The position numbers and the translations under genes are program-made. This document shows, in pieces, positions 15,446-34,679 of a stretch of 64,000 nucleotides of DNA (within the stretch, counting starts at the first letter, position 1; every line of letters begins with the position of its first letter). The DNA lies in NCBI GenBank assembly GCA_014360645.1, contig JACIXD010000003.1:1-64000 (forward strand), in the 5' to 3' direction. The notes under the pieces are model-generated. The model saw only the letters and a program-made list of their open reading frames with translations, had not been told where the DNA came from and did no database searches. The stretch comes from Actinomycetota bacterium. GTDB taxonomy: Bacteria > Actinomycetota > Geothermincolia > Geothermincolales > RBG-13-55-18.

Positions 15446-15475
15446 TTGGACGCGGGCGGGAACGGGGTTTATATT
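15446..15475 (+). promoter_or_regulatory. Possible promoter of the alpha/beta hydrolase gene
   Basis: TTGGAC and TATATT are 18 bases apart, about 55 bases before the start codon. Confidence 0.4.
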
Positions 15476-15529
15476 TGGAGGTGCCGTGAACACTGGGGCG
15501 TGGCCCCGGCGGGGAGAGAAGGGAGCGCC

Positions 15530-16180
15530 ATGCGTAGGGAAAGGATCTATTTCTACGCCGACAGCCTGGAGCCCATCAGGCTCGAGGGGATACTGGAGCT
15601 TCCGGAGGGGGGATCGAGGCCGCCGGCTTGCATACTCTGCCACCCCCACCCCATCGGTGGGGGTTCCATGGACGTCCCCTTGATGGAGGTTTTGTCCAAG
15701 GTCCTTTCGGAGCGGGGCTGGGCCTGCCTGCGCTTCAACTTCCGCGGCGTGGGGCGCAGCGGGGGGGTGTCCACGGGGGGCATCCGGGAGACGGAGGACC
15801 TGGAGGGGGCTTGGGCGTGGTTGCGGGAGCGGGAGGACGTGGATGCCTGGGACCTCTCCGTGGCCGGCTGGTCCTTCGGGGCCTGGGTGGGCCTGCGCTG
15901 GGCGGTGAAGGGAGACCGCTGCCGCAGGGTGGCGCTGATAAGCCCGCCGCTGGTGGGTTTCGACTTCTTCACCTTCCTGGAGGAGGAGGGCGTGTCGCTC
16001 CCGTCCCGTTGCCTGGTGGTGGCGGGGGAGCGGGATCAGTTCGCGGACCGGGAGAGATTGGAAAGGCTTTCCTCCAGGCTTGGAGCGGCGCTGCGTCTCC
16101 TGCCGGGGGCGGACCACTTCCTCTTCGGGCGCGAGCGCGAGGTGGCGGAGGCGGTGGGCGACCATTGGGCCGCCGGCTGA
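15530..16180 (+). CDS. Small alpha/beta hydrolase (dienelactone hydrolase-like)
   Basis: A 216-residue alpha/beta hydrolase resembling the group annotated as alpha/beta hydrolase of the YtmA/dienelactone type. CHPHPIGGGSMD forms the oxyanion region, RFNFRGVGRSGG follows, and the nucleophile elbow is GWSFGAW (Ser at about 118). An acidic residue follows in GERDQFAD and the catalytic His is in GADHFLFG. The substrate is unknown. A longer upstream frame lacks a ribosome site; GGGAGC precedes the chosen ATG. Confidence 0.75.
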   Translation: MRRERIYFYADSLEPIRLEGILELPEGGSRPPACILCHPHPIGGGSMDVPLMEVLSKVLSERGWACLRFNFRGVGRSGGVSTGGIRETEDLEGAWAWLREREDVDAWDLSVAGWSFGAWVGLRWAVKGDRCRRVALISPPLVGFDFFTFLEEEGVSLPSRCLVVAGERDQFADRERLERLSSRLGAALRLLPGADHFLFGREREVAEAVGDHWAAG

Positions 16181-16258
16181 TGCCGCCGTCGTGCGCGGAG
16201 CATCGGTTATAAGCTTATCTACCTGCGAAAACGCTCCGTACCGGTGCCGAGGACGTCG

Positions 16259-16287
16259 TTGCATTCCCGGGGGTGAACGGATATAAT
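16259..16287 (+). promoter_or_regulatory. Strong promoter of the Wood-Ljungdahl operon
   Basis: TTGCAT and a perfect TATAAT are separated by exactly 17 bases, in a region where the background is GC-rich. Transcription would start near 16294, about 185 bases before fhs. Confidence 0.75.
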
Positions 16288-16293
16288 ACTTTG

Positions 16294-16479
16294 GGCGCTC
16301 CGGAAGGAGCACGAGCGCCGGCCACGCGCGATGATGACTTCACCGGGGACTCAGGGGCCTGTGGGTGCAGGCCTTGGGCCTTCGGTTTAATATATGTCAA
16401 AAATCGGCCTTGCGGCCACAAGACGCGGTGAAAGGAGACGCCCGAAAACCGTCACCAAAGGAAGGAAAGGAGTTGCAGC
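16294..16479 (+). promoter_or_regulatory. Structured 5' leader of fhs
   Basis: The leader contains a GGCGCTC/GAGCGCC stem at its very start, a perfect GGCCTG/CAGGCC hairpin with a 6-base loop at 16356-16373, and another GC-rich stem near 16405. It ends in AAAGGAAGGAAAGGAG, the ribosome site. It does not match the folate (THF) or other riboswitch consensus sequences I know. Confidence 0.4.
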
Positions 16480-18183
16480 ATGGTTCCGAGCGACCTGGAA
16501 ATCGCGCAAGCGGCGGAGCTCCTGCCTATCGTGGAGATCGCCAAGAAGATGGGACTGGAGGAGGACGAGATCGATCTCTACGGCAAGTACAAGGCCAAGA
16601 TCGATTTCGAGCGCTTTCTGGAGAGGGTCAAGGACAAGCCCAACGGAAAGTACATCGACGTGACCGCCATCACCCCCACCCCCCTAGGCGAGGGCAAGAC
16701 GGTCACCTCCATCGGCCTCACCGAATCCCTGGCCAAGATCGGAAAGAACGTGGTGCTCGCGCTGCGTGAGCCCTCCCTGGGCCCGGTGTTCGGCATCAAA
16801 GGCGGGGCGGCGGGAGGAGGCTACTCCCAGGTGGTGCCCATGGAGGACCTCAACCTCCATTTCACGGGGGACATCCATGCCGTGGGGGCGGCCAACAACC
16901 TGCTGGCGGCGATGATCGACACCAGCATCCTGCTGGGGAACCCCCTCAACATCGACCCCCTGACCATCTCCTGGCGCAGGGTGGTGGACATCAGCGACCG
17001 CGCCCTGCGCGACATCGTCATCGGGCTCGGGGGCCGCGAGAACGGCTATCCGCGCCAGACCGGCTACGACATCACCGTGGCCTCGGAGGTCATGGCCATC
17101 CTCGCCCTGGCCACCAGCCTCAAGGACCTGCGGGAGCGCCTGGGAAGGATCGTGGTCGCCTACACCTACGACGGCAAACCGGTGACCGCCGAGGACCTCA
17201 AGGCGGCAGGGGCTATGACCGTGCTCCTCAAGGAGGCCCTCAAGCCCAACCTCATCCAGACCCTGGAGCACAACCCCTGCATCATGCATGCAGGTCCCTT
17301 CGCCAACATCGCCCACGGCAACAACTCAATCGTGGCCGACTACGTGGCCCTGAAGTGCGGCGACTACGTGGTGACGGAGTCCGGGTTCGGCGCGGATATG
17401 GGGGCGGAGAAGATGATGAACATCAAGTGCCGTTACTCCGGCCTCACCCCGGACTGCGTGGTGATCACCTGCACCATCCGGGCCCTGAAGATGCACGGTG
17501 GAGCCTTCGAGGCGCGTCCCGGCAAGCCCCTCGACGAGGAGCTGGTGAAGAAGGAGAACATGCCGGCTCTCGAGGAGGGCACCGGGAACCTCATCAAGAT
17601 GATCGAGAACATGAAGCTCTTCGGCCTTCCCGTGGTGGTGACCATCAACCGGCGCACAACCGACATGGACAAGGAGATCGAGCTGGTCAAAAAGCTCGCC
17701 GAGGAGGCCGGCGTGGTCGCCTGCGTACCCATCGAGGTTTGGGCCAAGGGTGGCGAGGGCGGAAAGGAGGCCGCGGAGGCGGTGGTGGCCGCCTGCGACC
17801 AGCCCAGTGAATTCAAATTCCTCTATCCAGACGACTGGTCCATAAAGGAGAAGATCGAGGCCATCGCCACCAAGATCTACGGGGCCGACGGGGTGGACTA
17901 TACCCCCCTGGCGGAGCAGAAGATCAAGCAGTACACCGAGGCGGGATGGGATAAGCTCCCCATCTGCATGGCCAAGACGCACCTCTCGCTTTCCCACGAC
18001 CCCAACCTCAAAGGCGTGCCCAAGGGTTACCGCCTGCCGGTGGTGGATATCAGGCCGTCTATCGGAGCCGGCTTCCTTTATCCGCTTTGCGGCGCCATGA
18101 GGACCATGCCCGGTCTTCCCAGCCGCCCCGCGGCGGTGGACGTGGACATCGATGAGAACGGGAGGACCATGGGGTTGTTCTGA
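16480..18183 (+). CDS. fhs: Formate-tetrahydrofolate ligase
   Basis: A 567-residue enzyme that condenses formate and THF with ATP to 10-formyl-THF, the first THF step of the methyl branch. The ATP-binding loop is TPTPLGEGKTVTSIGL (about 65-80). EPSLGPVFGIKGGAAGGGYSQV and the C-terminal RTMPGLPSRPAA are family hallmarks. Length equals the family norm of about 560. It heads the seventeen-gene cluster with its own strong promoter and a clear ribosome site. A 13-bp perfect hairpin follows the stop. Confidence 0.97.
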   Translation: MVPSDLEIAQAAELLPIVEIAKKMGLEEDEIDLYGKYKAKIDFERFLERVKDKPNGKYIDVTAITPTPLGEGKTVTSIGLTESLAKIGKNVVLALREPSLGPVFGIKGGAAGGGYSQVVPMEDLNLHFTGDIHAVGAANNLLAAMIDTSILLGNPLNIDPLTISWRRVVDISDRALRDIVIGLGGRENGYPRQTGYDITVASEVMAILALATSLKDLRERLGRIVVAYTYDGKPVTAEDLKAAGAMTVLLKEALKPNLIQTLEHNPCIMHAGPFANIAHGNNSIVADYVALKCGDYVVTESGFGADMGAEKMMNIKCRYSGLTPDCVVITCTIRALKMHGGAFEARPGKPLDEELVKKENMPALEEGTGNLIKMIENMKLFGLPVVVTINRRTTDMDKEIELVKKLAEEAGVVACVPIEVWAKGGEGGKEAAEAVVAACDQPSEFKFLYPDDWSIKEKIEAIATKIYGADGVDYTPLAEQKIKQYTEAGWDKLPICMAKTHLSLSHDPNLKGVPKGYRLPVVDIRPSIGAGFLYPLCGAMRTMPGLPSRPAAVDVDIDENGRTMGLF

Positions 18184-18215
18184 GAGGCGACCCTGCGGCA
18201 GTGAAGGCGTGGAAC

Positions 18216-18245
18216 GATACCCCGGTCCATCCGGACCGGGGTATC
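18216..18245 (+). repeat. Perfect 13-bp hairpin between fhs and the RACo gene
   Basis: GATACCCCGGTCC pairs with GGACCGGGGTATC around an ATCC loop. There is no T run behind it, so it may be a processing or stabilising element, or an attenuator, rather than a full terminator. Confidence 0.75.
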
Positions 18246-18282
18246 ATCGAGCATCGGGTGATATTTGTGGGGAGGCCGGGAA

Positions 18283-20283
18283 GTGACGGATGACCTCTGC
18301 AGGGTGCTCTTCCTGCCCGACAACCGGTTCGTGACCGTGGCGCGGGGCGAGAACCTCTTGCGCGCGGCCATGGACGCTGACGTGCACATCAACGCCTCCT
18401 GCGGGGGCTCGGGGTCCTGCGGAAAGTGCCGCGTGGTCATCGAGGAAGGGGAGGTGGAGCGGGAACCCAACCCCAAGTTGGGCGAGGCCGAGGCGGCCAG
18501 GGGATACGCTCTGGCCTGCCAGACCCGGGTGCTCTCCGACCTCAAGGTGAGCATCCCCCTGGAATCCCGTATCGGCGACCGGCGCATCTTCGAGCGCGCC
18601 GAGCCCACCCCCGCCCACGGCCACCTGCTCTCGGCGGCGGACTGGGAGGAGCGCCTGCCCGCCTGGGAGCTTGACCCCCCCACCCGCAAGTACCACCTCG
18701 TGCTCCCCGAGCCCTCCCTGGACGACAACGCCAGCGACGCGGAGCGCATCAAACGGGGCCTGGCGGTGGAGGCCGGGCTGCGCGACGTGGTCATCGACTA
18801 CCCGGTGCTACAGCGCCTGCCCAACATGATCCGCCAGAGCGGGTGGGACATCACGGTGACGGTGCTGGACTCCGGCGAGGAGCTGAGGGCGGTGCGCATC
18901 GAGCAGGGAGACACCACCGAGAGGCAGTCGGCCATCGCCATCGACGTGGGCACCACCACCATCTCCGCCGAGCTCATCGACCTGCGCACCGGCGAGGTCA
19001 CGGCGCGGGCTTCGGACTACAACGCACAGGTGGCCTTCGGCGAGGACGTCATCACCCGCATCATCTACGCCATCCGCGGTACCGGCCTGGCCAAGCTGCA
19101 GTCGGTGGTGGTGGGGACCATCTGGAACCTCATCAAGAACCTGGTGGAGCAGGCGGGCATCGAGTACTGCAACATCACCCACGTGGTGGTGGCCGGAAAC
19201 ACCACCATGACCCACCTGCTCCTCGGCCTGAACCCGAAATATATCCGGGAGGAGCCCTACATTCCCTCCGCCACCTTCTTCCCCTGGATCAAGTGCTCCG
19301 ACATCGGCCTGCGCATCGCCGCGGGAGTATACCTCTACGCCATCCCCTGCGTGGCCTCCTACGTGGGCGGGGACATCGTGGCCGGCATGCTGGCCTCCGG
19401 CATCTTCAACACCGACCGGCTGACCCTGTACATCGACATCGGGACCAACGGGGAGATGGTGCTGGGCAACCGCGACTGGATGCTCTCCTGTTCCTGCTCG
19501 GCCGGTCCCGCCTTCGAGGGGGGAGGGGTCAAGCACGGCATGCGCGCCACCAGCGGCGCCATCGAGCAGGTGCGTATCGACAAGATAGGTTACGAGCCCA
19601 TGATCATCACCGTGGGCAACCGCAAGCCCATCGGGATATGCGGTTCCGGGCTCATAGACGCCCTCTCGGAGATGTTCCTCACCGGGGTGATCAACGAGAA
19701 GGGGAAGATCAACACCGACCTGCCCACCCCCCGGGTGCGGCGCACGGAGGGGGGCGCGGAATACGTGCTGGTGTGGGCGGAGGACTCGGCCACGCGCCGC
19801 GACATCGTCATCACCGAGGTGGACATCGACAACCTCATGCGCGCCAAGGCGGCGGTGTACGCCGGGATAGAGATCCTGCTCTCCTCCATGGACCTGGATG
19901 TCTCCATGATCGACGAACTGCTCATCGCGGGGGCCTTCGGACGTTACCTGGAGGTGGACAAGGCGGTGACCATCGGGCTGCTTCCGGATATCGGGTACGA
20001 GAAGATAAAGTTCGTGGGCAACGGGTCCCTGCTGGGGGCGCACCTCTCGGCGCTGTCCCGGGAGATGCTCGCGCGCGCGAACGAGATCGCCCGCCAGATG
20101 ACCTATCTGGAGCTCTCCATGAACCCCGCCTTCATGGAGCACTACGTGTCCGCGCTCTTCTTCCCCCACACCGACCTGGACTCTTTCCCCAGCGTCAAGG
20201 AGAGGCTTGAGACTTACCGCGCGGTGCAGAGGATGGCGGCGCGGGAGGGCGGGGTGAACGGCGAGGAAAAAGGAGCGGACTGA
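18283..20283 (+). CDS. acsV: Reductive activator of corrinoid protein (RACo/ASKHA ferredoxin)
   Basis: A 666-residue metalloprotein that reactivates oxidised Co(II) corrinoid iron-sulfur protein at the cost of ATP. The N-terminal plant-type [2Fe-2S] domain has Cys at 40, 46, 49 and 79. A linker follows, then the ASKHA ATPase domain with AIDVGTTTISAEL and DIGTNGEMV. The GTG start at 18283 has GGGGAGG seven bases upstream; a TTG six codons earlier is less likely. Position beside the acs genes fits activation of AcsCD rather than of a methylamine corrinoid protein. Its stop overlaps cooC by one base. Confidence 0.9.
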   Translation: MTDDLCRVLFLPDNRFVTVARGENLLRAAMDADVHINASCGGSGSCGKCRVVIEEGEVEREPNPKLGEAEAARGYALACQTRVLSDLKVSIPLESRIGDRRIFERAEPTPAHGHLLSAADWEERLPAWELDPPTRKYHLVLPEPSLDDNASDAERIKRGLAVEAGLRDVVIDYPVLQRLPNMIRQSGWDITVTVLDSGEELRAVRIEQGDTTERQSAIAIDVGTTTISAELIDLRTGEVTARASDYNAQVAFGEDVITRIIYAIRGTGLAKLQSVVVGTIWNLIKNLVEQAGIEYCNITHVVVAGNTTMTHLLLGLNPKYIREEPYIPSATFFPWIKCSDIGLRIAAGVYLYAIPCVASYVGGDIVAGMLASGIFNTDRLTLYIDIGTNGEMVLGNRDWMLSCSCSAGPAFEGGGVKHGMRATSGAIEQVRIDKIGYEPMIITVGNRKPIGICGSGLIDALSEMFLTGVINEKGKINTDLPTPRVRRTEGGAEYVLVWAEDSATRRDIVITEVDIDNLMRAKAAVYAGIEILLSSMDLDVSMIDELLIAGAFGRYLEVDKAVTIGLLPDIGYEKIKFVGNGSLLGAHLSALSREMLARANEIARQMTYLELSMNPAFMEHYVSALFFPHTDLDSFPSVKERLETYRAVQRMAAREGGVNGEEKGAD

Positions 20284-21041
20284 TGTCTTTCGTCATCGCG
20301 GTGTCGGGCAAGGGAGGCACGGGCAAGACCACCTTCGCCGCCCTCTCCGTGGCCTACCTGGTGCGCAGCACGGGAAGGGCGGTGCTGGCGGTGGACGCCG
20401 ACTCCAACGCCAACCTGGACCTCGCCCTGGGCACCAAGGCCGAGAAGACCATCGGCGCGGTGAGGGAATACCTCACCGAGAACATCAAGAACATGCCCGC
20501 GGGCATGTCCAAGGAGGTATGGGTGGAGACGCTCCTGCAGCAGGCCCTGGTGGAGGAGAAGGGCTTCGACCTCATATCCATGGGCAGGCCGGAGGGGCCG
20601 GGATGCTACTGCTACCTCAACAACATCTTCAGGCGCTACCTCGACCTCATGACCGGACGTTACGACTACGTGGTCATGGACAACGAGGCGGGCATGGAGC
20701 ATCTCTCCCGGCGCACCACCACCGGGGTGGACGTGATGTTCATCGCCTCCGACCCCACGGTGAGAGGAGTGCGGACCGCCCTGCGCATCCGGGACCTGGC
20801 GCGGGAGCTGAAGCTGGATATCGGGCGCATGGCCTTGGTGGTGTCCAGGGTGCGGGACGGCCTGCCGGACAACCTCCGGGAAATCGCCGAGGAGGGCAAC
20901 CTGGAGATCGCCGGCTGGGTGCCCGACGACGAGCTACTGCGCGACTACGACGAGTCGGGAAAGGCGCTGACGGAGCTCCCGGAGGAGAGCCCGGCCCGCG
21001 AGGCCATCGAGAAGATCCTGGCCGCCTACGTGGCGGTATGA
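20283..21041 (+). CDS. cooC: CO dehydrogenase maturation ATPase CooC/AcsF
   Basis: A 252-residue MinD/ParA-type P-loop ATPase with the deviant Walker A GKGGTGKTTFAAL (9-21) and VLAVDADSNANLDLALG. The conserved MGRPEGPGCYCY segment near 100 holds the CxC that binds nickel in CooC proteins. It helps load nickel into CooS or AcsB. It starts one base inside the preceding stop (TGATG), so translation is coupled to the RACo gene. Confidence 0.93.
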   Translation: MSFVIAVSGKGGTGKTTFAALSVAYLVRSTGRAVLAVDADSNANLDLALGTKAEKTIGAVREYLTENIKNMPAGMSKEVWVETLLQQALVEEKGFDLISMGRPEGPGCYCYLNNIFRRYLDLMTGRYDYVVMDNEAGMEHLSRRTTTGVDVMFIASDPTVRGVRTALRIRDLARELKLDIGRMALVVSRVRDGLPDNLREIAEEGNLEIAGWVPDDELLRDYDESGKALTELPEESPAREAIEKILAAYVAV

Positions 21042-21183
21042 GAGACATGCCGGTGCCGGGGGTCGAGGCCGGGGCGGCGGTTGCGGAGCGGGCCCCGGGA
21101 GGGCGGGGAAGGGCGGAAGCATGACGGGGCGCCCGGAGAGGGCGCGGGGAACCCGCGGAGACGACGGGTGTAGTATATATACC

Positions 21184-21212
21184 TGGAAATATAGGTGGAT
21201 TAGTGCGATAAT
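21184..21212 (+). promoter_or_regulatory. Possible internal promoter before fchA
   Basis: TGGAAA and GATAAT are 17 bases apart with an extended -10 TG, in an AT-rich island. Transcription would begin about 20 bases before fchA. Confidence 0.4.
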
Positions 21213-21239
21213 CATGAGTTGGACCGGGGAGGTCTCACG

Positions 21240-21866
21240 ATGTACGTAGAGAAGCCCATGATCGTGTTTCTGGACAAGCTCGCCTCCAGGTCGCCGGAGC
21301 CGGGTGGTGGTTCCGTATCCGCGCTGGTGGGCGCGCTGGGAGCCGCGCTGGTCTCCATGGTCGGGAACCTGACCCTGGGTAAGGAAAAGTACGCCGACGT
21401 CCAGGACCAGGTGGAAGAGCTGCTCAAATCATCCGAAAGGGCCCGCGACAGGCTCCAGGGCTTGATCCAGAAGGACACCGAGGTCTACGCGGACGTGTCC
21501 GCCGCCTTCAAGATGCCGCGGGAGACCGAGGACCAGAAGGCGGAGCGCGCGGCGCGCATCCAGGAGGCCCTCAAACTGGCCACGGAGGTGCCCTTCGAGA
21601 TAGCGGAGGCGTGCCTGGAGGTGGCGCGCCTCTCCGAGACCGCCGCCGAGATAGGGAACGTGGGCGCGGTGAGCGACGCGGGGGTCGCGGCGCTGCTCGC
21701 GGAGGCCGCCGCCCAGAGCGCCGCCCTCAACGTGAAGATCAACGTCAACAGCATCGAGGACACCGCTTTCTGCGAGAGCAAGTGGTCGCGTATCCAGGAG
21801 ATCCTCACGGAGACGGCGGAGCTGCGCGACCGCGTGGTCAGGGTCACCTACGAAAAGCTGGGGTGA
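21240..21866 (+). CDS. fchA: Methenyl-THF cyclohydrolase, cyclodeaminase family (FchA)
   Basis: A 208-residue helical protein of the formiminotransferase-cyclodeaminase family, which in acetogens and purinolytic clostridia acts as methenyl-THF cyclohydrolase or formimido-THF cyclodeaminase. SPEPGGGSVSALVGALGAAL near the N-terminus and VGAVSDAGVAALLAEAA are family signatures. The ATG at 21240 has GGGGAGG seven bases upstream. No formiminotransferase gene is near. With the degenerate cyclohydrolase site of the FolD encoded next, this protein is the likely source of that activity in the methyl branch. Confidence 0.88.
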   Translation: MYVEKPMIVFLDKLASRSPEPGGGSVSALVGALGAALVSMVGNLTLGKEKYADVQDQVEELLKSSERARDRLQGLIQKDTEVYADVSAAFKMPRETEDQKAERAARIQEALKLATEVPFEIAEACLEVARLSETAAEIGNVGAVSDAGVAALLAEAAAQSAALNVKINVNSIEDTAFCESKWSRIQEILTETAELRDRVVRVTYEKLG

Positions 21867-22124
21867 TCATCCGGCGTGCCGCGAGGTGATTCTCGCCATC
21901 CGCACGGAACGGTTCCCGCAGAGGAGGACCCCGCGAGGGCGGAGTGCAGATGGAATAAGATGGAAAGTTAAGCCCGCGGGCGCGGCCGGTCCGAGGCCTG
22001 GGCGGACCGTGGACGCATGGACAACGTGGATGCATGGATATAGACGGGAAGGCGCTGGCGCAGCGGAGGCGGAAAAACCGGGAGACCGGCGCGACAAGGC
22101 GAGAAGAGGAAAGGAGCAACGGAC

Positions 22125-23063
22125 ATGACGGTGGTCATCGATTGCGTAGCCATCGGCGATGAGCTCATGAAGGAGATCGTCGCGGAGACCGAGGCCCTCA
22201 AGGCCAAGGGGATAACCCCGGGCATCGCCACCCTGCTGGTGGGCGACGACTTCGGGGCCAAGATGTACCGCGGACAGGTGGAGAAGTTCTGCGAGGAGGC
22301 CGGTTTCGCCTATATCAACGAGAACCCGCCCGCGGACGTGAGCGAGGAGGAGGTGGTGGAGATCGTCAAGCGCCTCAACGCCGACAAGGCGGTGAGCGGC
22401 ATCCTCCCCTTGCGCCCCTTCCCCGAGCACATCTCCGACAGCGCGGTCATCAACTCCATCGACGTGAACAAGGACATCGACTGCTTCCACCCCTTCAACA
22501 TGGGCAAGCTGGCCCTGGGGGAGCCCACCTTCCCGCCCGCCACGCCCTCCGCGGTCATCGAGATCCTCGACCGCTACGCCCGGGACGTCAAGAAGATGGA
22601 CCCCAAGGACTTCTACGAGGGGGCGGAGGTGTGCGTGGTGGGCCACTCCAACATCGTGGGCAAGCCGGTGGCCTTCCTCATGCTCAACCGCAACGCCTCC
22701 ACCACCGTGGTGCACGTCTTCACCTCCATGAAGGGCAACCTGGAAAAGCACACCAGGGCGGCGGACATCCTCATCGTCGCGGCGGGCAAGCCAGACCTCA
22801 TCGGGCCTGAGCAGGTCAAGGAGGGCGCCATCGTGGTGGACGTGGGCATCAACCGTGTCAAGGTGCTGGACGCAAACGGCGAGCCGGTGCTCAACGAGAA
22901 GGGCAAGCCCAAGACCAAGACGGTGGGGGACGTGTCCTTCGACGTCGTCAAGGACATGACCGAGGCCATCACCCCCGTTCCCGGCGGCGTGGGCTCGGTG
23001 ACCAACCGTATGCTCATGAAGAACGCCCTGCGCGCCTGCAAGCTCCAGCACGGCCTGGAATGA
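22125..23063 (+). CDS. folD: Methylene-THF dehydrogenase (FolD family, cyclohydrolase site altered)
   Basis: A 312-residue FolD-family protein, slightly longer than the usual 280-300. The Rossmann motif GHSNIVGKP (about 172) and the C-terminal TPVPGGVGSVT show an intact dehydrogenase part. At the folate site, Tyr48 is kept. The position of the catalytic Lys (Lys54 in E. coli) is Val52, the position of Gln98 is Leu96, and Gly122 is Cys120, while the Asp before it remains. It therefore probably works only as dehydrogenase. GAAAGGAG precedes the ATG. The Arg of GRS in many NADP enzymes is His here, so cofactor choice is open. Confidence 0.9.
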   Translation: MTVVIDCVAIGDELMKEIVAETEALKAKGITPGIATLLVGDDFGAKMYRGQVEKFCEEAGFAYINENPPADVSEEEVVEIVKRLNADKAVSGILPLRPFPEHISDSAVINSIDVNKDIDCFHPFNMGKLALGEPTFPPATPSAVIEILDRYARDVKKMDPKDFYEGAEVCVVGHSNIVGKPVAFLMLNRNASTTVVHVFTSMKGNLEKHTRAADILIVAAGKPDLIGPEQVKEGAIVVDVGINRVKVLDANGEPVLNEKGKPKTKTVGDVSFDVVKDMTEAITPVPGGVGSVTNRMLMKNALRACKLQHGLE

Positions 23064-23142
23064 CGGACGACATGGCGCGAGGGAGACGGGGAGACATAAT
23101 AATAATTTCGGCGGAGATCAGCAGCGGAAAGGAGAGAAAGAG

Positions 23143-24084
23143 ATGGCATTCAACCTACCGACGGAGACGGCCAAGGGCAAGGTCCGCGAGGTAGAGCTGG
23201 GCGCCGGTGAAAAGGCGAAGAAGGTAGGCGGCGAGAACGTCCTCCCCTTCCACCTCTGGGAGGGCGAGATGCCCAACAAGCCCCTCGTGGCCGCCGAGGT
23301 GTCCGACGAGGTGGGCGAGCTCGTCCCGGCCCTGGAGAAAGCCCTGGGAGAGGTCAAGAACGACCCCGTGGCCTGGGCCAGGAAGGCGGTGGAGGAGTGG
23401 GGCGCCGACGCCATTTTCCTCCTCCTGGCCTCCACCGACCCCAAGGCTACCGATGCCCCCGCCGAGCAGGCGGCGGAGACGGTGCTCAAGGTGGAGGAGG
23501 CGGTAAACGTCCCGGTGATCGTGTACGGCACCGAGGACCTGGACAAGGACGCCGAGATCGCCAGGGTGGTGGCCACCAAGGCGGAGGGCAAGAACCTGCT
23601 CATCGGGCCGGCCAAGGAGGAGAACTTCAAGAAGGTGGGCGCGCCCGCCATCGGCTACAAGCAGACGGTGGCCGGCATGACCCCCATCGACGTCAACCTG
23701 GCCAAGCAGCTCAACATCCTCCTGACCAACCTGGGCATGGAGGCCGAGAAGCTGGTCATCGACCCCACCACCGGGGCCCTGGGCTACGGCCTGGAGTACA
23801 CCTACTCGGTGATGGAGCGCCTGAAGATCGCGGCCCTCATGCAGGACGACTCCATGACCCAGATGCCCATGCTCGCCAACATCGGCACCCAGGCCTGGAA
23901 GACCAAGGAGGCCAAGAGCTCCCAGGAGGAATACCCGGAGTGGGGAGACCCCGAGAAGCGCGGCATCATGTGGGAGACGGTCACCGCCGTGGCCCTGCTC
24001 CTGGCAGGGGCGGACATCCTGGTGCTCCGGCACCCCGAGTCCATCCGCCTGGTGAAGCAGCTCATAGCCGACCTTTCGGGCTAG
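23143..24084 (+). CDS. acsD: Corrinoid iron-sulfur protein small subunit
   Basis: A 313-residue TIM-barrel subunit (CdhD/AcsD family) that forms a heterodimer with AcsC and helps hold the corrinoid carrying the methyl group. Family features are the VLPFHLWEG segment near residue 31, LLASTDPKATD near 93 and VIDPTTGALGYGLEYTYSVMERL near 203. A strong GGAAAGGAGAGAAAGAG site precedes the ATG. It is followed 65 bases later by cooS. Confidence 0.95.
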   Translation: MAFNLPTETAKGKVREVELGAGEKAKKVGGENVLPFHLWEGEMPNKPLVAAEVSDEVGELVPALEKALGEVKNDPVAWARKAVEEWGADAIFLLLASTDPKATDAPAEQAAETVLKVEEAVNVPVIVYGTEDLDKDAEIARVVATKAEGKNLLIGPAKEENFKKVGAPAIGYKQTVAGMTPIDVNLAKQLNILLTNLGMEAEKLVIDPTTGALGYGLEYTYSVMERLKIAALMQDDSMTQMPMLANIGTQAWKTKEAKSSQEEYPEWGDPEKRGIMWETVTAVALLLAGADILVLRHPESIRLVKQLIADLSG

Positions 24085-24149
24085 GCTTTCATATATAGAG
24101 GAGGTTCGGGAAGAACCTGGATCGCGATTCCACAGGAGGAACAGCACTC

Positions 24150-26087
24150 ATGGCAGAACTGGAGGAGATGACGGCGTGCGAAGCCACGCTGGAGATGCTT
24201 AGAAAAGCCAAGGAGGAGGAACAGGAGACGGCCTTCGACCGCGTGCAGCAGCAGAAGGGATGCGCCTTCGGAGAGGCGGGAAGCTGCTGCCGGATCTGCA
24301 ACATGGGCCCCTGCCGCATCAACCCCAAGAAGCCCGACGAGAGCCGCGGGGTATGCGGCGCCGACATGGATACCATCGTGGCCCGCAACTTCGCCCGCAT
24401 GGTCGCGGGGGGCGCTTCCGCCCACTCCGACCACGGGCGCGCCGTGGCCGAGACCCTGATCATGGCCGCCAAGGGGGAGACGACGGATTACCAGATCAAG
24501 GACCGCGTCAAGCTCCTGGAGGTGGCGGCGGACCTGGACATCGAGATCGGGGACCGCGACATCAACGACATCGCCCTGGAGGTGGGCGAGCGCTGCCTGG
24601 CCATGTTCGGGCAGCAGGAGGGCGAGCTGGCCTTCGCCCAGAGGGCCCCGGAGAAGCGCAAGGAGATCTGGCGCCAGCTCGGGGTCTTCCCCCGCGGCAT
24701 CGACCGCGAGGTGGTGGAGCTCATGCACCGTACCTCCATCGGCGTCGACCAAGACTACGAGAACATCCTCCTGGGAGCGGCCCGCTGTTCCCTGGCGGAC
24801 GGTTGGGGAGGCTCCATGATCGGGACCGAGCTTCAGGACATCCTCTTCGGCACCCCGGAGCCCCTGGAGAGCAAGGTCAACCTGGGGGTGCTCAAGGAGG
24901 ACGAGGTCAACATCATCGTCCACGGCCACGAGCCTCTGCTCTCGGAGATGATCGTGCTGGCCGCAAGCCTTCCCGAGATGCAGGAGAAGGCGGAGAAGGC
25001 GGGCGCCAAGGGGATCAACCTCTCGGGTATCTGCTGCACCGCCAACGAGGTGCTCACCAGGCACGGAGTTCCCATCGCCGGCAACGTGCTGCAGCAGGAG
25101 CTGGCCCTGCTCACCGGCGCGGTGGAAGCCATGGTGGTGGACGTGCAGTGCGTATACCAGGGTATAGGGCAGATAGCGAGCTGCCTGCACACCGACATCA
25201 TCACCACCTCCCCCCGGGCCAAGATGCCCTACGCGCGGCACATCGAGTTCCACGAGGACCACGCCCTGGACATCGCCAAGGAGATCGTCTCCGCGGCCAT
25301 CGACAACTTCCCCAAGCGGGGCAAGGTCACCATCCCGGACAACACGGAGTCGCTCATCGCCGGCTTCAACCACGAGTACATCAACTACATGCTGGGAGGC
25401 AAGTACCGCGCCTCCTACCGTCCCTTGAACGACGCCATCATCGATGGGCGCATCCGCGGCGTGGTGGGCGTGGTGGGGTGCAACAACCCGCGCGTCAAGC
25501 ACGACGACATCCACGTGCGCGTGGTGCGCGAGCTCATCGCCAACGGCTGCCTGGTGGTGATGACCGGCTGCGCGGCGCAGTCGGTGGCCAAGGCCGGGCT
25601 CATGCTCCCCGAGGTGGCGCGCGAGATCTGCCCCCAGGGACTCTGGGAGGTCTGCGAGGCCGTGGGGATACCGCCGGTGCTCCACTGCGGCTCCTGCGTG
25701 GACAACAGCCGCATCCTCATCGCCCTCACCGCCATGGTGCGCGAGGGCGGCCTGGGAGACGACATCAGCGACCTCCCGGCGGCCGGCTGCGCTCCGGAGT
25801 GGATGAGCGAGAAGGCCATCTCCATCGGCGAGTACTTCGTGGCCTCGGGCGTGTACACCGTGTTCGGAGTGAAGTGGCCCACCATGGGCTCCAAGAACGT
25901 CACCGAGCTTCTCTTTGAGAAGTACAACGAGATCTACAAGAACAGCTGGCACTTCGAGCCCGATCCCGAGAAGATGGTGGGCAAACTTCTCACCCTCATC
26001 GACAGCAAGCGCGAGGCCCTGGGCATTTCCGCCAAGCGTGAGAGGGTGCTCTACGACATGGCTATGAGGAGGGAGTTGGAGATCTAA
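24150..26087 (+). CDS. cooS: Ni-containing CO dehydrogenase catalytic subunit
   Basis: A 645-residue anaerobic CO dehydrogenase (AcsA/CooS) that reduces CO2 to CO for acetyl-CoA synthesis. The N-terminal Cys cluster CCRICNMGPCRINP and GVCGADMDTIVARNF form the D/B-cluster region, followed by SAHSDHGR. C-cluster ligands are visible in NLSGICCTANEV, the DVQCVYQG segment, VGCNNPRVKHD, MTGCAAQ and HCGSCVDNSR. Length is normal. It overlaps acsB by one base, the classical arrangement for the bifunctional CODH/ACS complex. Confidence 0.97.
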   Translation: MAELEEMTACEATLEMLRKAKEEEQETAFDRVQQQKGCAFGEAGSCCRICNMGPCRINPKKPDESRGVCGADMDTIVARNFARMVAGGASAHSDHGRAVAETLIMAAKGETTDYQIKDRVKLLEVAADLDIEIGDRDINDIALEVGERCLAMFGQQEGELAFAQRAPEKRKEIWRQLGVFPRGIDREVVELMHRTSIGVDQDYENILLGAARCSLADGWGGSMIGTELQDILFGTPEPLESKVNLGVLKEDEVNIIVHGHEPLLSEMIVLAASLPEMQEKAEKAGAKGINLSGICCTANEVLTRHGVPIAGNVLQQELALLTGAVEAMVVDVQCVYQGIGQIASCLHTDIITTSPRAKMPYARHIEFHEDHALDIAKEIVSAAIDNFPKRGKVTIPDNTESLIAGFNHEYINYMLGGKYRASYRPLNDAIIDGRIRGVVGVVGCNNPRVKHDDIHVRVVRELIANGCLVVMTGCAAQSVAKAGLMLPEVAREICPQGLWEVCEAVGIPPVLHCGSCVDNSRILIALTAMVREGGLGDDISDLPAAGCAPEWMSEKAISIGEYFVASGVYTVFGVKWPTMGSKNVTELLFEKYNEIYKNSWHFEPDPEKMVGKLLTLIDSKREALGISAKRERVLYDMAMRRELEI

Positions 26088-28273
26088 TGAGCAGGATAAT
26101 AGCAACCGCAGCCATCAAGGGAGCCCACAAGGAGGTGGCCGAGGCCGAGCGTATGCTCGCCGAGACCAAGGAGGCCGTCGGCGCCACCGCGAAGGTGGAG
26201 TTTCCCAACACAGGGTTCTATTTGCCCATCATCTATGCCCTGACGGGCATAGCTGTGCAGAAGCTCGAGGATATGGATCAGGTGATCGAGCTGGCCAAGG
26301 GCCTGCTGCCGCCGGTGCCCAGGGAGCGCCACTGGGTTCCCTACCTGGGGCATACCCTGGACGCGGGCATCGCCACCCTCTTCGCGGGGGAGATCATCGA
26401 GGGATGCAAGTACGCCACCAACCCGCCGGTGGACGACCTCTGGCTGGGGGCGGCGGACGACGTGATCATGCGTGAGCGCGGGGTGGAGTTCGTGGACGGC
26501 ACCGCCCCCGGGTTCTGCGCCCTGGTGGGGAAGGCCTCCAACCCGGAGATGGCCGACCAGATCGTGGTGGAACTCCTGCAGAAGAACCTCTACGTGTGGA
26601 TCTCCGGCCACGTTGACGGGGTGAGCATCGCCGAGCAGCTCCAGCAGGTGGACCGCCAGCTGGGATGGGACACCCGCATCGTCCCCTACGGCAAGGAGAT
26701 GTCCTCGGCGGTGTACTCCCTGGGGTTCGCGGCCCGCGCCGCCATGTCCTTCGGGGGCGCCCAGCCGGGAGACTTCTCCAAGATCCTGCGCTACAACAAG
26801 AACCGCATCTTCGCCTTCGTGCTGGCGCTGGACTACGTGGACGAGCAGAAATACGCCTACGCGGCGGGGGCCATCAACTACGGCTTCCCCACCATCGCCA
26901 ACACCAGGATCCCGGACATCCTGCCCACCGGAGTGTGCACCTACGAGCACGTGGTGGGAAGCGTGCCCGAGGAGGAGATCGTCCAGAAGTGCGTGGAGGT
27001 GCGGGGCCTCAAGATCCAGATCGCCGAGATCCCCATCCCCATGGCCTACGGCCCCGCCTTCGAGGGCGAGGTCATCCGCAAGGACGATATGTACGTGCAG
27101 TTCGGCGGGAACATCACCCCCGCCTTCGAGTACGTGACCATGCGGGAGATGGACGAGGTCACCGACGGCAAGATCGAGGTGGTGGGTCCGGAGATCGACG
27201 ACGTCGAGGAGGGCGGCGCCCTTCCTCTGGGCATCGTGGTGGAGGTGGCGGGGCGCAAGATGCAGGAGGACTTCGAGTCCATCCTCGAGCGCCAGATACA
27301 CCACCTCATCAACGGCGCCGAGGGCATCTGGCACATGGGCCAGCGCGACATCGTGTGGACGCGCATCTCCAAGAAGGCACAGGCCAAGGGGTTCAAGATC
27401 CGCCACTACGGCGAGATCATCCACGCCAAGCTCATCAACGACTTCCCCTCCATCGTGGACAAGGTGCAGGTGACCATCTACACCAATCCCGAGGACGTGG
27501 AGAAGTGGCTGGCCACGGCGCGCGCCGCCTACCGCTACCGCGACGAGAAGACGGCGGGGATGACCGACGAGTCGGTGGACACCTTCTACTCCTGCACCCT
27601 TTGCCAGTCCTTCGCCCCCACCCACGTGTGCATCATCTCCCCCCAGCGGCTGGGGCTGTGCGGCGCCTACAACTGGCTGGACGGCAAGGCCGCCTACGAG
27701 ATCGACCCCACCGGCCCCAACCAGCCGGTGAAGAAAGGGGACTGCACCGACCCCGTGAAGGGCGAGTGGCCGGCCATCAGCGAGTTCGTGAAGGAGAAGT
27801 CCGGCGGCAACGTGGAGAACGTCAAGATGTACACCATGATGGAGGACCCCATGACCTCCTGCGGGTGTTTCGAGTGCATCGTGGCCTTCCTGCCCATGTG
27901 CAACGGGGTGATGATCGTCAACCGCGAGTACTCGGGGATGACCCCCAGCGGCATGCCCTTCTCCACCCTGGCCAACTCGGTGGGCGGCGGCAACGTCACC
28001 CCCGGGTTCATCGGCATCGGCAAGGTGTACATCACCTCCAAGAAGTTCATCTCCGCCGACGGGGGCTTCAAGCGCATCGTGTGGATGCCCAAGGAGCTCA
28101 AGGAGACCCTTCGGGAGCAGCTGGAGAAGCGCTGCCAGGACGAGGACGTCAACGACCCGGACTTCATCAACAAGATCGCCGACGAGGATGTGGGGACCAG
28201 CGAGGAGGAGATCCTTCCCTGGCTGGAGGAGAAGGGCCATCCCGCCCTCACCATGGACCCCATGCTCATGTAG
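26087..28273 (+). CDS. acsB: Acetyl-CoA synthase catalytic subunit, bacterial type
   Basis: A 728-residue enzyme that joins CO, a methyl group and CoA at the Ni-Ni-[4Fe-4S] A-cluster. Cluster ligands are Cys503, Cys506, Cys515 and Cys525 (YSCTLCQSFAPTHVC and GLCGAYNW), and Cys592-Gly-Cys594 (SCGCFEC), each shifted by three from the Moorella numbering. The full-length N-terminal domain that forms the CO tunnel to CooS is present, so this is the bacterial AcsB and not the shorter archaeal CdhC. A hairpin follows before acsC. Confidence 0.97.
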   Translation: MSRIIATAAIKGAHKEVAEAERMLAETKEAVGATAKVEFPNTGFYLPIIYALTGIAVQKLEDMDQVIELAKGLLPPVPRERHWVPYLGHTLDAGIATLFAGEIIEGCKYATNPPVDDLWLGAADDVIMRERGVEFVDGTAPGFCALVGKASNPEMADQIVVELLQKNLYVWISGHVDGVSIAEQLQQVDRQLGWDTRIVPYGKEMSSAVYSLGFAARAAMSFGGAQPGDFSKILRYNKNRIFAFVLALDYVDEQKYAYAAGAINYGFPTIANTRIPDILPTGVCTYEHVVGSVPEEEIVQKCVEVRGLKIQIAEIPIPMAYGPAFEGEVIRKDDMYVQFGGNITPAFEYVTMREMDEVTDGKIEVVGPEIDDVEEGGALPLGIVVEVAGRKMQEDFESILERQIHHLINGAEGIWHMGQRDIVWTRISKKAQAKGFKIRHYGEIIHAKLINDFPSIVDKVQVTIYTNPEDVEKWLATARAAYRYRDEKTAGMTDESVDTFYSCTLCQSFAPTHVCIISPQRLGLCGAYNWLDGKAAYEIDPTGPNQPVKKGDCTDPVKGEWPAISEFVKEKSGGNVENVKMYTMMEDPMTSCGCFECIVAFLPMCNGVMIVNREYSGMTPSGMPFSTLANSVGGGNVTPGFIGIGKVYITSKKFISADGGFKRIVWMPKELKETLREQLEKRCQDEDVNDPDFINKIADEDVGTSEEEILPWLEEKGHPALTMDPMLM

Positions 28274-28275
28274 GA

Positions 28276-28306
28276 AAGAGGGGGGCAGGGGACCAGCCCC
28301 CCTCTT
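28276..28306 (+). repeat. 11-bp hairpin between acsB and acsC
   Basis: AAGAGGGGGGC pairs with GCCCCCCTCTT around a 9-base loop, 2 bases after the acsB stop, followed by CTTGCG. This is half way to a terminator and may lower transcription or protect the upstream message. Confidence 0.65.
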
Positions 28307-28359
28307 CTTGCGACATAATGAGGTGGGATTACCGCTGATCAAGTAGGAAGGAGAAGGAA

Positions 28360-29709
28360 ATGGGACTTTCGGGCTTGGATATCTTCAAGAAGCTACCCAA
28401 GACCAACTGCAAGGAATGCGGCTTCCCGACCTGCCTCGCCTTCGCCATGAAGCTGGCGGCGGGACAGACGGCCCTCGACGAGTGTCCCTACGTTACCGAC
28501 GAGGTGCGGGCGGAGCTGGCCGAGGCCAGCGCGCCTCCCATCCGCGGGGTCGCCGTGGGGGTGGGTGACGAGGCCTTCAAGGTGGGCGAGGAGCTGGTGC
28601 TCTTCCGCCACGAGAAGACCTTCTTCAACCCCGCGGTCCTGGGGGTGCTGGTGAGCGACGACATGGACGACGCGAAGGTGGACGAGCTCGTCAAGCAGGC
28701 CAACGAGTGCGAGCACGAGCGCGTCGGCGTCATCCTCAAGGTGGGAGCCGTCGCGGTCAAGGCCGCTTCCGGCGACGCCGGCAAGTTCAAGGCCCTGGTG
28801 GAGAAGGTGAAGGGCGCCACCGCCAAGCCCCTCATCCTCATGGCCGAGGACGTGGAGGTCATGAAGGCGGGCGTGGAGGCGGCGGGAGATTCCCGGCCTC
28901 TGCTCTACGCCGCCACCGAGGCCAACGCCGACGCCATGGGCGCCCTGGCCAAAGAGAAGGAGCTGCCCCTGGCGGTGAAGGCCGCCGACCTGGACAAGCT
29001 GGCGGAGCTCTCGGAGAAGCTCACCGGCATGGGCCTCAAGGACCTGGTGCTCGACCCCGCGCCGCGCAAGCCGGGAGAGACCTTCAAGGACCTGGTGGCC
29101 ATCCGCAGGGCGGCCCTGAACCAGAAGTTCGCCGCCTTCGGGTTCCCCACCATCACCTTCCCCTGTGAGGAGACCGACGACGAGCTCTACGAGACCGCCC
29201 TGGCGGCCATGTACATCTGCAAGTACGGCGGCATCGTAGTGCTCTCCCATGCCGAGCAGTGGAGGATGTACCCCCTCCTGGTCCTGGGCCTGAACATCTA
29301 CACCGATCCCCAGCGCCCCATGGCCGTGGACTCCAAGTTCTACGAGATCGGCGCCCCGGACGAGAACAGCCCGGTGCTGGTGACCACCAACTTCTCCCTC
29401 ACCTACTTCATCGTCTCCGGCGAGATCGAGGGGAGCAAGATCCCGGCCTGGCTGGGCGTGGTGGACGTGGACGGGCAGTCGGTGCTCACCGCCTGGGCGG
29501 CGGGCAAGTTCGTGCCCGAGACCATCGCCAAGTTCATCAACACCTCCGGCATCGCGGACAAGGTCAAGCACCGCAAGCTGATCATCCCCGGCTACGTGGC
29601 CCAGATCTCGGGCGAGCTGGAGGAGGAGCTGCCGGATTGGGAGATCGTCATCGGCACCCGGGAAGCGGCGGATATCCCGGCCTTCCTGCGCCAGTTCTCC
29701 ACCACCTGA
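28360..29709 (+). CDS. acsC: Corrinoid iron-sulfur protein large subunit
   Basis: A 449-residue subunit (AcsC/CdhE) that carries the [4Fe-4S] cluster and, with AcsD, the cobamide. The N-terminal cluster motif has Cys17, Cys20, Cys25 and Cys42 (NCKECGFPTC and LDECPYV). A TIM barrel follows, then the C-terminal cobamide-binding domain with LGVVDVDGQSVLTAWAAGKF. It receives methyl from AcsE and hands it to AcsB; the RACo protein encoded upstream would re-reduce it. GGAAGGAGAAGG precedes the start. Confidence 0.96.
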   Translation: MGLSGLDIFKKLPKTNCKECGFPTCLAFAMKLAAGQTALDECPYVTDEVRAELAEASAPPIRGVAVGVGDEAFKVGEELVLFRHEKTFFNPAVLGVLVSDDMDDAKVDELVKQANECEHERVGVILKVGAVAVKAASGDAGKFKALVEKVKGATAKPLILMAEDVEVMKAGVEAAGDSRPLLYAATEANADAMGALAKEKELPLAVKAADLDKLAELSEKLTGMGLKDLVLDPAPRKPGETFKDLVAIRRAALNQKFAAFGFPTITFPCEETDDELYETALAAMYICKYGGIVVLSHAEQWRMYPLLVLGLNIYTDPQRPMAVDSKFYEIGAPDENSPVLVTTNFSLTYFIVSGEIEGSKIPAWLGVVDVDGQSVLTAWAAGKFVPETIAKFINTSGIADKVKHRKLIIPGYVAQISGELEEELPDWEIVIGTREAADIPAFLRQFSTT

Positions 29710-29733
29710 GTCCGGGCTCGAGGTAGGAGCGCT

Positions 29734-29839: not shown

Positions 29840-30505
29840 ATGATCATCACCACATCGAAGCCCTTCGAGGAGGTGCTCAAGGAGCTCGAGGGGCAGGACA
29901 AGGTGTTCATCGTCGGCTGCGGCTCCTGCGCCACCACCTGCGAGACGGGGGGCGAAAAGGAAGTGGCCGAGATGAAGGCCAGGCTCGAGGCGGAGGGCAA
30001 GACGGTCACCGGGACGGTGGTCTACGAGGAGGTCTGCCACGAGCTCAACACCAAGCGCAAGTTCCGCGAGAACAAGGAGGCGGTGGAGGCGGCCGAGGGC
30101 TTCCTGGTCATGTGCTGCGGCGCCGGCACCCAGTCGGTGCGCGAGGCCACCGACAAGGACGTTCACCCCGCCTGCAACACGGTTTTCCTGGGCAACATCC
30201 TGCGCCAAGGCCAGTTCGTGGAGAAGTGCTCCCTGTGCGGCGACTGCGTGCTGGAGGACTTCGGGGCCATCTGCCCCGTCACCCGCTGCCACAAGGGCAT
30301 CCTCAACGGCCCCTGCGGCGGCACCGACGAGGGCAAGTGCGAGACGGACAAGGAGAAGGACTGCGGCTGGACCCTCATCTTCAACCAGCTGGAGAAGCTG
30401 GGCAAGCTCGACCGCTTCAAGCGCATCTACGGCCTCAAGAACTGGCAGGCCAGCATGAAGCCCGGCCGGGTGATTTTCGAGAAGAAGGGCGAGGGGGGTG
30501 AATAG
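29840..30505 (+). CDS. metV: Methylene-THF reductase partner protein MetV
   Basis: A 221-residue zinc- and Cys-rich protein of the MTHFR C-terminal family (DUF5981), the partner of MetF in acetogens. Cys residues appear in GCGSCATTCETG (about 32-43), the CCGAG segment near 93 and the [4Fe-4S]-like CSLCGDCVLEDFGAICPVTRC region near 130-153, followed by NGPCGG. It probably transfers electrons to the MetF flavin. The stop lies 1 base before the metF start, so the two are coupled. Confidence 0.9.
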   Translation: MIITTSKPFEEVLKELEGQDKVFIVGCGSCATTCETGGEKEVAEMKARLEAEGKTVTGTVVYEEVCHELNTKRKFRENKEAVEAAEGFLVMCCGAGTQSVREATDKDVHPACNTVFLGNILRQGQFVEKCSLCGDCVLEDFGAICPVTRCHKGILNGPCGGTDEGKCETDKEKDCGWTLIFNQLEKLGKLDRFKRIYGLKNWQASMKPGRVIFEKKGEGGE

Positions 30506-30506
30506 G

Positions 30507-31436
30507 ATGACCATGCTTCTGGAAAAGCACGCCAAGCCCAGTATCCAGGAGGTCATGGAATCCGGGAAGTTCCTCGTCACCGGGGAGATCGGGCCTCCCA
30601 AGGGCACGGACATCGACGAGATGATCCACCACATCGACCTTCTCAAGGACAAGGTCCACGCCATGAACATCACCGACAACCAGTCCTCGGTGATGCGCTA
30701 TCCCTCCCTGGGCACCGCCCTCATCGTCCTGGAGCGCGGCGGCGAGCCCAACCTGCAGGTCACCTGCCGGGACCGCAACCGCCTGGCCATCGAGGCGGAC
30801 CTGCTCTTCGCCTATACCCGCGGCGTGCGCAGCGTGCTCTGCCTCACCGGCGACTCCATCCCCGTGGGCGACCACAAGGAGGCCAAGGGCGTCTTCGACT
30901 GCGAGAGCGTGCAGCTCCTCCAGCTCATCCGCAACATGGAGGAGGGGAGGGACTCCGGCGGCAACGAGCTGCAGGGCGGCGTGAAGTTCTACAAGGGCGC
31001 CATCGTCACCCCCGAGGCGCAGCCCATCGAGCCCCAGATGTACAAGTTCGAGAAGAAGATCGAGGCGGGGGCGCAGTGGTTCCAGACCCAGGCCGTCTAT
31101 GACATGGACAACTTCAAGCGCTTCATGGAGCGGGCGCGCAAGATCAACGACAAGGTGAAGATCTGCGCCGGCCTGGTGCTCCTCACCTCCATGGGCGCCA
31201 TCCGTTACATGAACGCCAACGTCCCCGGCGTCTTCGTGCCCGACAACCTGGTGAAGGAGATGGCCGACGCGCCCAAGGGCGAGGCCCTCAACACCGGCAT
31301 CAGGATCATGGCGCGCCAGATCCGCCAGTGCATCGACGAGAAGCTCTGCGACGGCGTGCACATCATGGCCATCGGCAAGGAAGACGTGGTGCCCCGCATC
31401 CTGGAAGAGGCCGGGGTGGACATCACCAAGATGTAG
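30507..31436 (+). CDS. metF: Methylenetetrahydrofolate reductase
   Basis: A TIM-barrel flavoprotein of about 309 residues that reduces methylene-THF to methyl-THF, the last reduction of the methyl branch. LVTGEIGPPKGTD, the NITDNQSSVMR segment and LCLTGDSIP are typical of the acetogen-type enzyme. Possible starts are GTG 30498, ATG 30507 and ATG 30513; 30507 has the best spacing to the GAGGGGGG ribosome site. It is made together with MetV. No RnfC2-like or HdrA partner is encoded here, so the electron donor remains open. Confidence 0.93.
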   Translation: MTMLLEKHAKPSIQEVMESGKFLVTGEIGPPKGTDIDEMIHHIDLLKDKVHAMNITDNQSSVMRYPSLGTALIVLERGGEPNLQVTCRDRNRLAIEADLLFAYTRGVRSVLCLTGDSIPVGDHKEAKGVFDCESVQLLQLIRNMEEGRDSGGNELQGGVKFYKGAIVTPEAQPIEPQMYKFEKKIEAGAQWFQTQAVYDMDNFKRFMERARKINDKVKICAGLVLLTSMGAIRYMNANVPGVFVPDNLVKEMADAPKGEALNTGIRIMARQIRQCIDEKLCDGVHIMAIGKEDVVPRILEEAGVDITKM

Positions 31437-32810: not shown

Positions 32811-32812
32811 GG

Positions 32813-33791: not shown

Positions 33792-34679
33792 ATGCTGATC
33801 ATCGGCGAGAAGGTAAACGTGATGATGAAGAAGATCGGCGCCGCCATGAAGGAGTTCGACAAGAAGCCCATCCAGGAGATGGCGCTCCTCCAGGCCGAGG
33901 GCGGGGCCAACTGGCTGGACATCAACCTGGGGCCCGCCACCAAGCAGGGGCCCGAGCGCATGCGCTTCGTGGTGGAGGCGGTGCAGGAGGTCACGGACCT
34001 TCCCCTGGCCCTGGACACCATGAACATCGAGGCCATGAAGGCGGGCTTGGAGACGGTGAAGGACCGCGAGGTGATGATCAATTCCATTTCCTCCCAGCCG
34101 GAGCGCATCTCCGCCCTCATGCCCATGGCCGTGGAGCACAACGCCTGGGTGGTGGGCCTGGTCCTCAACGACCAGGGCAACGTGCCCCGCGACGCCTCGG
34201 AGAGGGTGGAGGTGGCCTATAACCTCATCATGGCGGCCCAGGAGTACGGCATCCCCCTGGAGAAGCTGCTCATCGACCCCATCGTCCTCCCCATCGCCGT
34301 GACCCAGGACCAGGTGCACGCGCTCATAGACGCCATGGACATGCTGCAGGGCGTCTTCGCGGAGTTCGACCCCGCGCCGGGGACGGTGGTAGGACTTTCC
34401 AACGTCTCCAACGGCGTGCCCGACGAGTCCCTGTGCAGCCTTCTCAACCGCACCCTGCTGGCGGTGCTCATGGCCAAGGGGCTGACGGCGGCCATCGTGG
34501 ACCCCAACGACGAGGCGCTCATGGGCGTGGTGAACAGGAACGAGGAGTACCAGATCGTGGAGAAGATCGTCAACGGCGAGGCCGTGGATGAGAGCGATCC
34601 CCTCACCATCAAGCTCCTCAAGACCTGGCGGGTGCTCACCGAGGAGACGCTCTACACCCATTCCTATCTGGAGCTCTAA
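33792..34679 (+). CDS. acsE: Methyl-THF:corrinoid iron-sulfur protein methyltransferase
   Basis: A 295-residue pterin-binding TIM barrel that moves the methyl group from methyl-THF to Co(I) of AcsCD, linking the two branches. MLIIGEKVNVM opens the protein, NWLDINLGPATKQGPE and LALDTMNIEAMKAGL are the pterin-binding segments, and GLSNVSNGVP near 197 carries the conserved Asn that activates the pterin. Length is normal. AGAAGGAGGAGGAAAG precedes the start. It would be the last step before AcsB. Confidence 0.95.
   Translation: MLIIGEKVNVMMKKIGAAMKEFDKKPIQEMALLQAEGGANWLDINLGPATKQGPERMRFVVEAVQEVTDLPLALDTMNIEAMKAGLETVKDREVMINSISSQPERISALMPMAVEHNAWVVGLVLNDQGNVPRDASERVEVAYNLIMAAQEYGIPLEKLLIDPIVLPIAVTQDQVHALIDAMDMLQGVFAEFDPAPGTVVGLSNVSNGVPDESLCSLLNRTLLAVLMAKGLTAAIVDPNDEALMGVVNRNEEYQIVEKIVNGEAVDESDPLTIKLLKTWRVLTEETLYTHSYLEL

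Follow-up and report, generated by a model that had tools for sequence, protein, structure and literature searches.

The FolD protein encoded in the window, as we call the whole stretch of 64,000 nucleotides of actinobacterial DNA analysed here, is very probably a dehydrogenase-only enzyme, with FchA, the product of the neighbouring gene, in charge of the cyclohydrolase reaction in the methyl branch of the Wood-Ljungdahl pathway. Along this branch, Fhs would make 10-formyl-tetrahydrofolate (10-formyl-THF), FchA would interconvert 10-formyl-THF and methenyl-THF, FolD would interconvert methenyl-THF and methylene-THF, and MetVF would then handle methylene-THF. The genes concerned are part of a cluster with the order fhs, acsV, cooC-like, fchA, folD, acsD, cooS, acsB, acsC, metV and metF (Table 1). 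The genome of this carbon-fixing bacterium measures 3.38 Mb at 98% completeness; among named taxa, Candidatus Solincola and Geothermincola, of the Geothermincolaceae (Actinomycetota), are closest to it.

Table 1. Wood-Ljungdahl genes of the window and the codons of folD discussed in the text
Feature	Position	Strand	Reading and evidence
fhs	16480..18183	+	formate-THF ligase, preceding methyl-branch step; NF010030, 828 bits
acsV-like	18265..20283	+	corrinoid activation protein; NF040756, 735 bits, below cut-off 800
CooC/MinD-type ATPase	20283..21041	+	MinD-type models only; name inferred from operon position
fchA	21219..21866	+	methenyl-THF cyclohydrolase, 215 aa; NF045657 8.6e-72, PF04961, PDB relative 7vg4
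folD	22125..23063	+	312 aa, predicted dehydrogenase-only methylene-THF dehydrogenase; FolD family models, phmmer, AlphaFold2
Val52 codon	22278..22280	+	E. coli Lys54 position, essential for cyclohydrolase; gapless alignment, V/I/G in 60/60
Leu96-Arg97 codons	22410..22415	+	E. coli Gln98-Leu99; alignment, invariant in 60/60
Cys120 codon	22482..22484	+	E. coli Gly122, preceding Asp119 = Asp121 kept; alignment, not diagnostic
acsD	23143..24084	+	corrinoid protein subunit delta; NF003376 above cut-off
cooS	24150..26087	+	CO dehydrogenase catalytic subunit; TIGR01702 above cut-off
acsB	26087..28273	+	acetyl-CoA synthase; NF040764 above cut-off
acsC	28360..29709	+	corrinoid protein subunit gamma; NF003195 above cut-off
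metV	29840..30505	+	PF12225
metF	30498..31436	+	methylene-THF reductase, step after FolD; PF02219
probably acsE	33792..34679	+	pterin-binding methyltransferase; PF00809, name is an inference

The window also encodes the catalytic subunit of a formate dehydrogenase (37388-40144, + strand) with an in-frame TGA at codon 356 (38453-38455), where a SECIS-like element matches RF01989 with an E-value of 7.9e-6, under the gathering score. The open reading frame reads as a selenocysteine enzyme which ordinary gene callers split in two.

Active-site residues of FolD

As the only match to PF02882 (178.7 bits), the window protein is the sole FolD of its genome. Its family domains, with the PF00763 domain above cut-off in close relatives, and its fold both place it in the FolD family; the AlphaFold2 model (pLDDT 92.6) has E. 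coli FolD 5o28 as its nearest fold. Phmmer aligned the protein with E. coli FolD (1b0a) at 9e-55, and this as well as a separate alignment runs without a gap through the region of the active-site helix and the two motifs behind it. Tyr50 and Asp121 of the E. coli enzyme are kept as Tyr48 and Asp119, as is the dinucleotide motif GHSNIVGKP, and Lys54, Gln98, Leu99 and Gly122 are replaced by Val52, Leu96, Arg97 and Cys120, respectively, in agreement with the residues that the earlier note on this DNA had read at the Tyr, Lys, Gln, Asp and Gly positions. The Lys54/Gln98 pair of bifunctional FolD proteins has thus given way to Val52 and Leu96. Retention of the lysine at another offset, an objection which that note had raised against itself, was ruled out as inapplicable, as the protein's own Lys54 pairs without a gap with Lys56, which E. 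coli FolD possesses in addition to Lys54.

These replacements are shared by a subfamily. A scan of one genome per species, covering 84,980 species, retrieved about 60 loci with at least 64% identity to the window FolD, the next matches being down at 43%. The position of Lys54 is occupied by Val in 56, Ile in three and Gly in one of the 60 aligned relatives, the positions of Gln98 and Leu99 invariably by Leu and Arg (60/60 each), and Tyr50 and Asp121 are kept throughout (60/60). The subfamily extends over Actinomycetota (several classes), Bacillota, Nitrospirota and Spirochaetota, and, with dN of 0.017-0.09 compared with dS of 0.26-1.26, folD evolves under purifying selection. At the position of Gly122, 58 relatives have Cys and two have Thr; this exchange, which the earlier note had listed among the missing cyclohydrolase residues, was dropped as evidence and Cys120 is not diagnostic, since several FolD proteins with intact Lys54 and Gln98 carry Ala, Cys or Ser there.

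In E. coli FolD, the K54N mutation leaves cyclohydrolase activity undetectable and about 19% of the dehydrogenase activity, and Q98H leaves about 1% and 8%, respectively (PMC5688156), which bears out the statement that a mutation of Lys54 abolishes the first activity and not the second. By analogy with these mutants, the window FolD would be devoid of cyclohydrolase activity. The loss of Lys54 and Gln98 must, on the other hand, be tolerated or compensated for in the dehydrogenase reaction, as both residues also support this reaction in bifunctional enzymes; the corresponding Lys56/Gln100 pair of human MTHFD1 has been described as serving both reactions (PMC3368264) and Q98H keeps the 8% mentioned. 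Arg97 is the candidate for maintaining dehydrogenase function without Lys54 and Gln98. The contacts to the 2'-phosphate, Arg173 and Ser197 in the human enzyme (PMC3368264; Ser197 also PMC9173628) and Arg191 in E. coli, correspond to His and Val in the window FolD, a replacement which suggests a preference for NAD(H).

Pairing of FolD with FchA

FchA is a stand-alone FTCD_C protein (PF04961) without FTCD_N, the only FTCD_C protein of the genome, and is closest to a known cyclohydrolase, with the methenyl-THF cyclohydrolase 7vg4 as the best solved relative (1.9e-51), followed by FTCD (3.2e-28). The sole NCBIfam match is NF045657 (FchA), of which positions 2-207 of 207 are covered with a score of 241 bits, below the curated cut-off of 275; such a score may explain why surveys have overlooked FchA proteins of this kind.

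Of the 62 loci of the subfamily, 59 have fchA upstream of folD in the same orientation; in the remaining three, folD sits right at the contig edge. The earlier note had asked whether this FolD always comes with fchA, and wherever the contig reaches, it does: in all 59 testable loci the two genes are directly adjacent and co-oriented, separated by a median of 87 bp. In the window, the gap (21867-22124) measures 258 bp, compared with about 35 bp in two genomes of the same genus (L003, L004), and consists of DNA unique within the genome; a weak scan detected neither a promoter-like nor a terminator-like site in it, and no RNA family was matched across 15000-33000. This arrangement lends no support to the suggestion, made together with the division of labour, that the two reactions are controlled separately.

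The relationship between the state of FolD and the presence of fchA was surveyed in 143 FolD proteins from 120 genomes (91 Bacillota, Actinomycetota close to the window but of other classes, and a few others), a FolD being termed intact if the Lys54/Gln98 pair is present and broken if Lys54 or Gln98 is lost. All 30 FolD proteins encoded adjacent to fchA are broken (17 without Lys54; 13 with Lys54 kept and Gln98 replaced by Glu), compared with 22 of the 113 non-adjacent ones, the other 91 being intact; the associated Fisher value of 4e-17, uncorrected for kinship, is not to be read as evolutionary replication, because an independent-pairs test of Lys/Gln loss against fchA had too few pairs to decide. 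Kinship inflates these counts: most broken FolD proteins fall into one clade of the FolD tree (51 rows, SH-aLRT 85), and five changes suffice on the best tree. An FTCD_C protein is encoded in each of the 37 genomes without an intact FolD and in 27 of the 83 genomes with one, the remaining 56 having none, so that each of the 120 genomes has an intact FolD, FTCD_C or the two together. In a second set, assembled from the fchA side in Spirochaetota and Actinomycetota, 33 of 33 FolD proteins are broken; this set overlaps with the first and consists mostly of the window subfamily. As a description, the co-occurrence of FolD and FchA is firm; as a case of evolutionary replication it is weak. With adjacency and genome co-occurrence free of exceptions where testable, the core of the earlier proposal, a FolD which would have lost its cyclohydrolase activity to FchA, is supported, and only the separate control is not; what had been missed are the Arg in place of Leu99, the Clostridium precedent and another FchA-linked group, marked by Glu for Gln98 with Lys54 kept.

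To this group belong all 13 FolD proteins of the survey that retain Lys54 beside fchA, each with Glu at the Gln98 position (Bacillota, e.g. L193, L194, L189, L198), which would probably represent a second route to a dehydrogenase-only FolD. A search of the plasmid collection for named relatives of this type yielded matches below 60% identity only. Loss of the lysine alone does not imply FchA, since FolD proteins without it also occur in genomes without any FTCD_C, namely in Streptomyces (G067), Acidimicrobiales (G068) and Bacillota (G089, G128, G131); an intact FolD is always co-encoded in these five. In the Streptomyces (L255) and Acidimicrobiales (L258) genomes, the lysine-less FolD beside the intact ones has the pattern YERRL...LRPLP and Glu instead of Asp121.

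Partner exchange and alternative explanations

While the FolD proteins of the Bacillota members are about 82% (77-88%) identical to that of the window, their FchA proteins are merely 34-39% identical and group with other Bacillota FchAs which accompany a FolD with Ala-Phe-Ala at positions 54, 98 and 99. A single clade for all FchAs of window-type FolD proteins was rejected by the AU test (p-AU 4.65e-10), and the FolD proteins of Geothermincolaceae and Bacillota cluster together (support 99). As a different FchA lineage is thus found beside the same FolD subfamily, partners have been exchanged: a window-type FolD came to stand beside an FchA already present, or vice versa, in an unchanged gene order, and the pairing held. 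It also persists across different surrounding operons. The Ala-Phe-Ala FolD with FchA is also present in L289 (Spirochaetota) and in L322 and L327 (Actinomycetota) at 83-91% identity, a sign of transfer or of misbinned contigs.

That FolD is still bifunctional, with another group, most likely Arg97, replacing Lys54 and with FchA as an auxiliary raising the flux, we consider improbable. Every member of the subfamily has the arginine at the Leu99 position, several further lysine-less groups with FchA have it too, and an extra cyclohydrolase would pay off under acetogenic flux; the partner of Lys54, Gln98, is however gone as well, FchA is present in every locus testable on its contig, and many broken FolD proteins linked to FchA (AFA, AFS and KEL types) have no arginine there. 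It is very improbable that the neighbour is the formimino-THF cyclodeaminase of histidine breakdown, with methenyl-THF hydrolysed spontaneously or by another enzyme. While PF04961 is common to FchA and cyclodeaminase, the NCBIfam equivalog cut-off is missed and methenyl-THF hydrolysis is partly spontaneous (PMC5688156), the closest solved structure is a cyclohydrolase and not FTCD, and the gene holds a constant position between fhs and folD. Moreover, FTCD_N and HutH (histidine ammonia-lyase) were searched for across the genome and neither was found, which makes a role of FchA in histidine breakdown unlikely.

An equally slight probability is given to the association being inherited by hitch-hiking inside the Wood-Ljungdahl cluster, with the loss of Lys54 and fchA functionally independent, as would fit the clustering of broken FolD proteins in the tree and the scarcity of independent pairs for correlated change. 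Such hitch-hiking is difficult to reconcile with a pairing that outlasts both the exchange of FchA lineages and different operon surroundings, nor would it account for at least one of an intact FolD and FTCD_C being encoded in every surveyed genome. The preferred reading, a dehydrogenase-only FolD with FchA as the cyclohydrolase, can be extended to an active site rebuilt with Arg97 for Lys54 and Gln98 and to an obligate, exchangeable FolD-FchA module that hands over methenyl-THF, so that FolD could adopt an FchA of another lineage; this extension is conceivable, but rather doubtful.

Known systems and previous annotation

Separate proteins for the dehydrogenase (FolD) and the cyclohydrolase (FchA) are a feature shared with Clostridium perfringens, whose FolD and FchA are reportedly both required to replace the FolD of E. 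coli. Many fchA-adjacent FolD proteins of Bacillota keep Lys54 and have Glu for Gln98, in contrast to the V/L/R pattern of the window. The separate FolD and FchA of C. perfringens are credited to Aluri et al. (2016), as cited in PMC7219735; concerning acetogens, both proteins of the pair have been quantified in C. autoethanogenum (PMC9040625), Wood-Ljungdahl clusters with FolD/FchA have been compared (PMC10213532), and the clustering of fhs, fchA, folD and metVF with acs genes is a trait which they share with the window. A monofunctional dehydrogenase is cited for Peptostreptococcus productus (in PMC6443876). As C. perfringens and acetogens already possess separate FolD and FchA proteins, the principle is known and the kind is not new. 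Yeast MTD1 (1edz), a monofunctional NAD-dependent methylene-THF dehydrogenase, has the FolD fold in common, but is eukaryotic and very distant (3e-8); it likewise lacks the Lys/Gln pair and is not known to have an FchA partner. The bifunctional FolD of E. coli shares the fold, Tyr50, Asp121 and the dinucleotide domain, whereas its Lys54, Gln98 and the 2'-phosphate contact Arg191 are replaced in the window FolD.

The division of labour known from clostridia is here predicted for a widespread FolD subfamily which is treated as bifunctional by databases and at least one paper. Geothermincolia are in the following taken by us to be equivalent to RBG-13-55-18. The paper, a single-cell study of related Actinobacteria from 2020, considered fch absent and FolD probably bifunctional like in Moorella for the clades UBA1414, UBA9087 and RBG-13-55-18, with an ftcD gene listed in a figure legend (PMC7325909). 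Going by the residues and gene neighbourhood, the bifunctional assignment does not hold for the Geothermincola-type genomes analysed here, including Ca. Solincola sediminis RBG_16 (L042), and may stand for UBA1414 and UBA9087. A sequence rule, by which adjacency to fchA marks a FolD lacking Lys54 or Gln98 and a genome with such a FolD needs FchA, would correct the routine annotation as bifunctional as well as the published Wood-Ljungdahl reconstruction for this lineage (PMC7325909). The natural variants (V/L/R, A/F/A, K/E) offer material for telling apart the two activities of an enzyme that has been well studied.

In Bacillota, paired folD genes, adjacent or within about 3 kb of each other, were observed in G100:C37 (L209/L227), G140:C1 (L217/L216), G128:C2 (L218/L222) and G127:C91 (L250/L239). 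In three of these genomes one FolD has the intact Lys54/Gln98 pair and the other carries Gln at the position of Lys54 and Glu at that of Asp121, a side-by-side arrangement which possibly reflects a division of labour between two FolD proteins.
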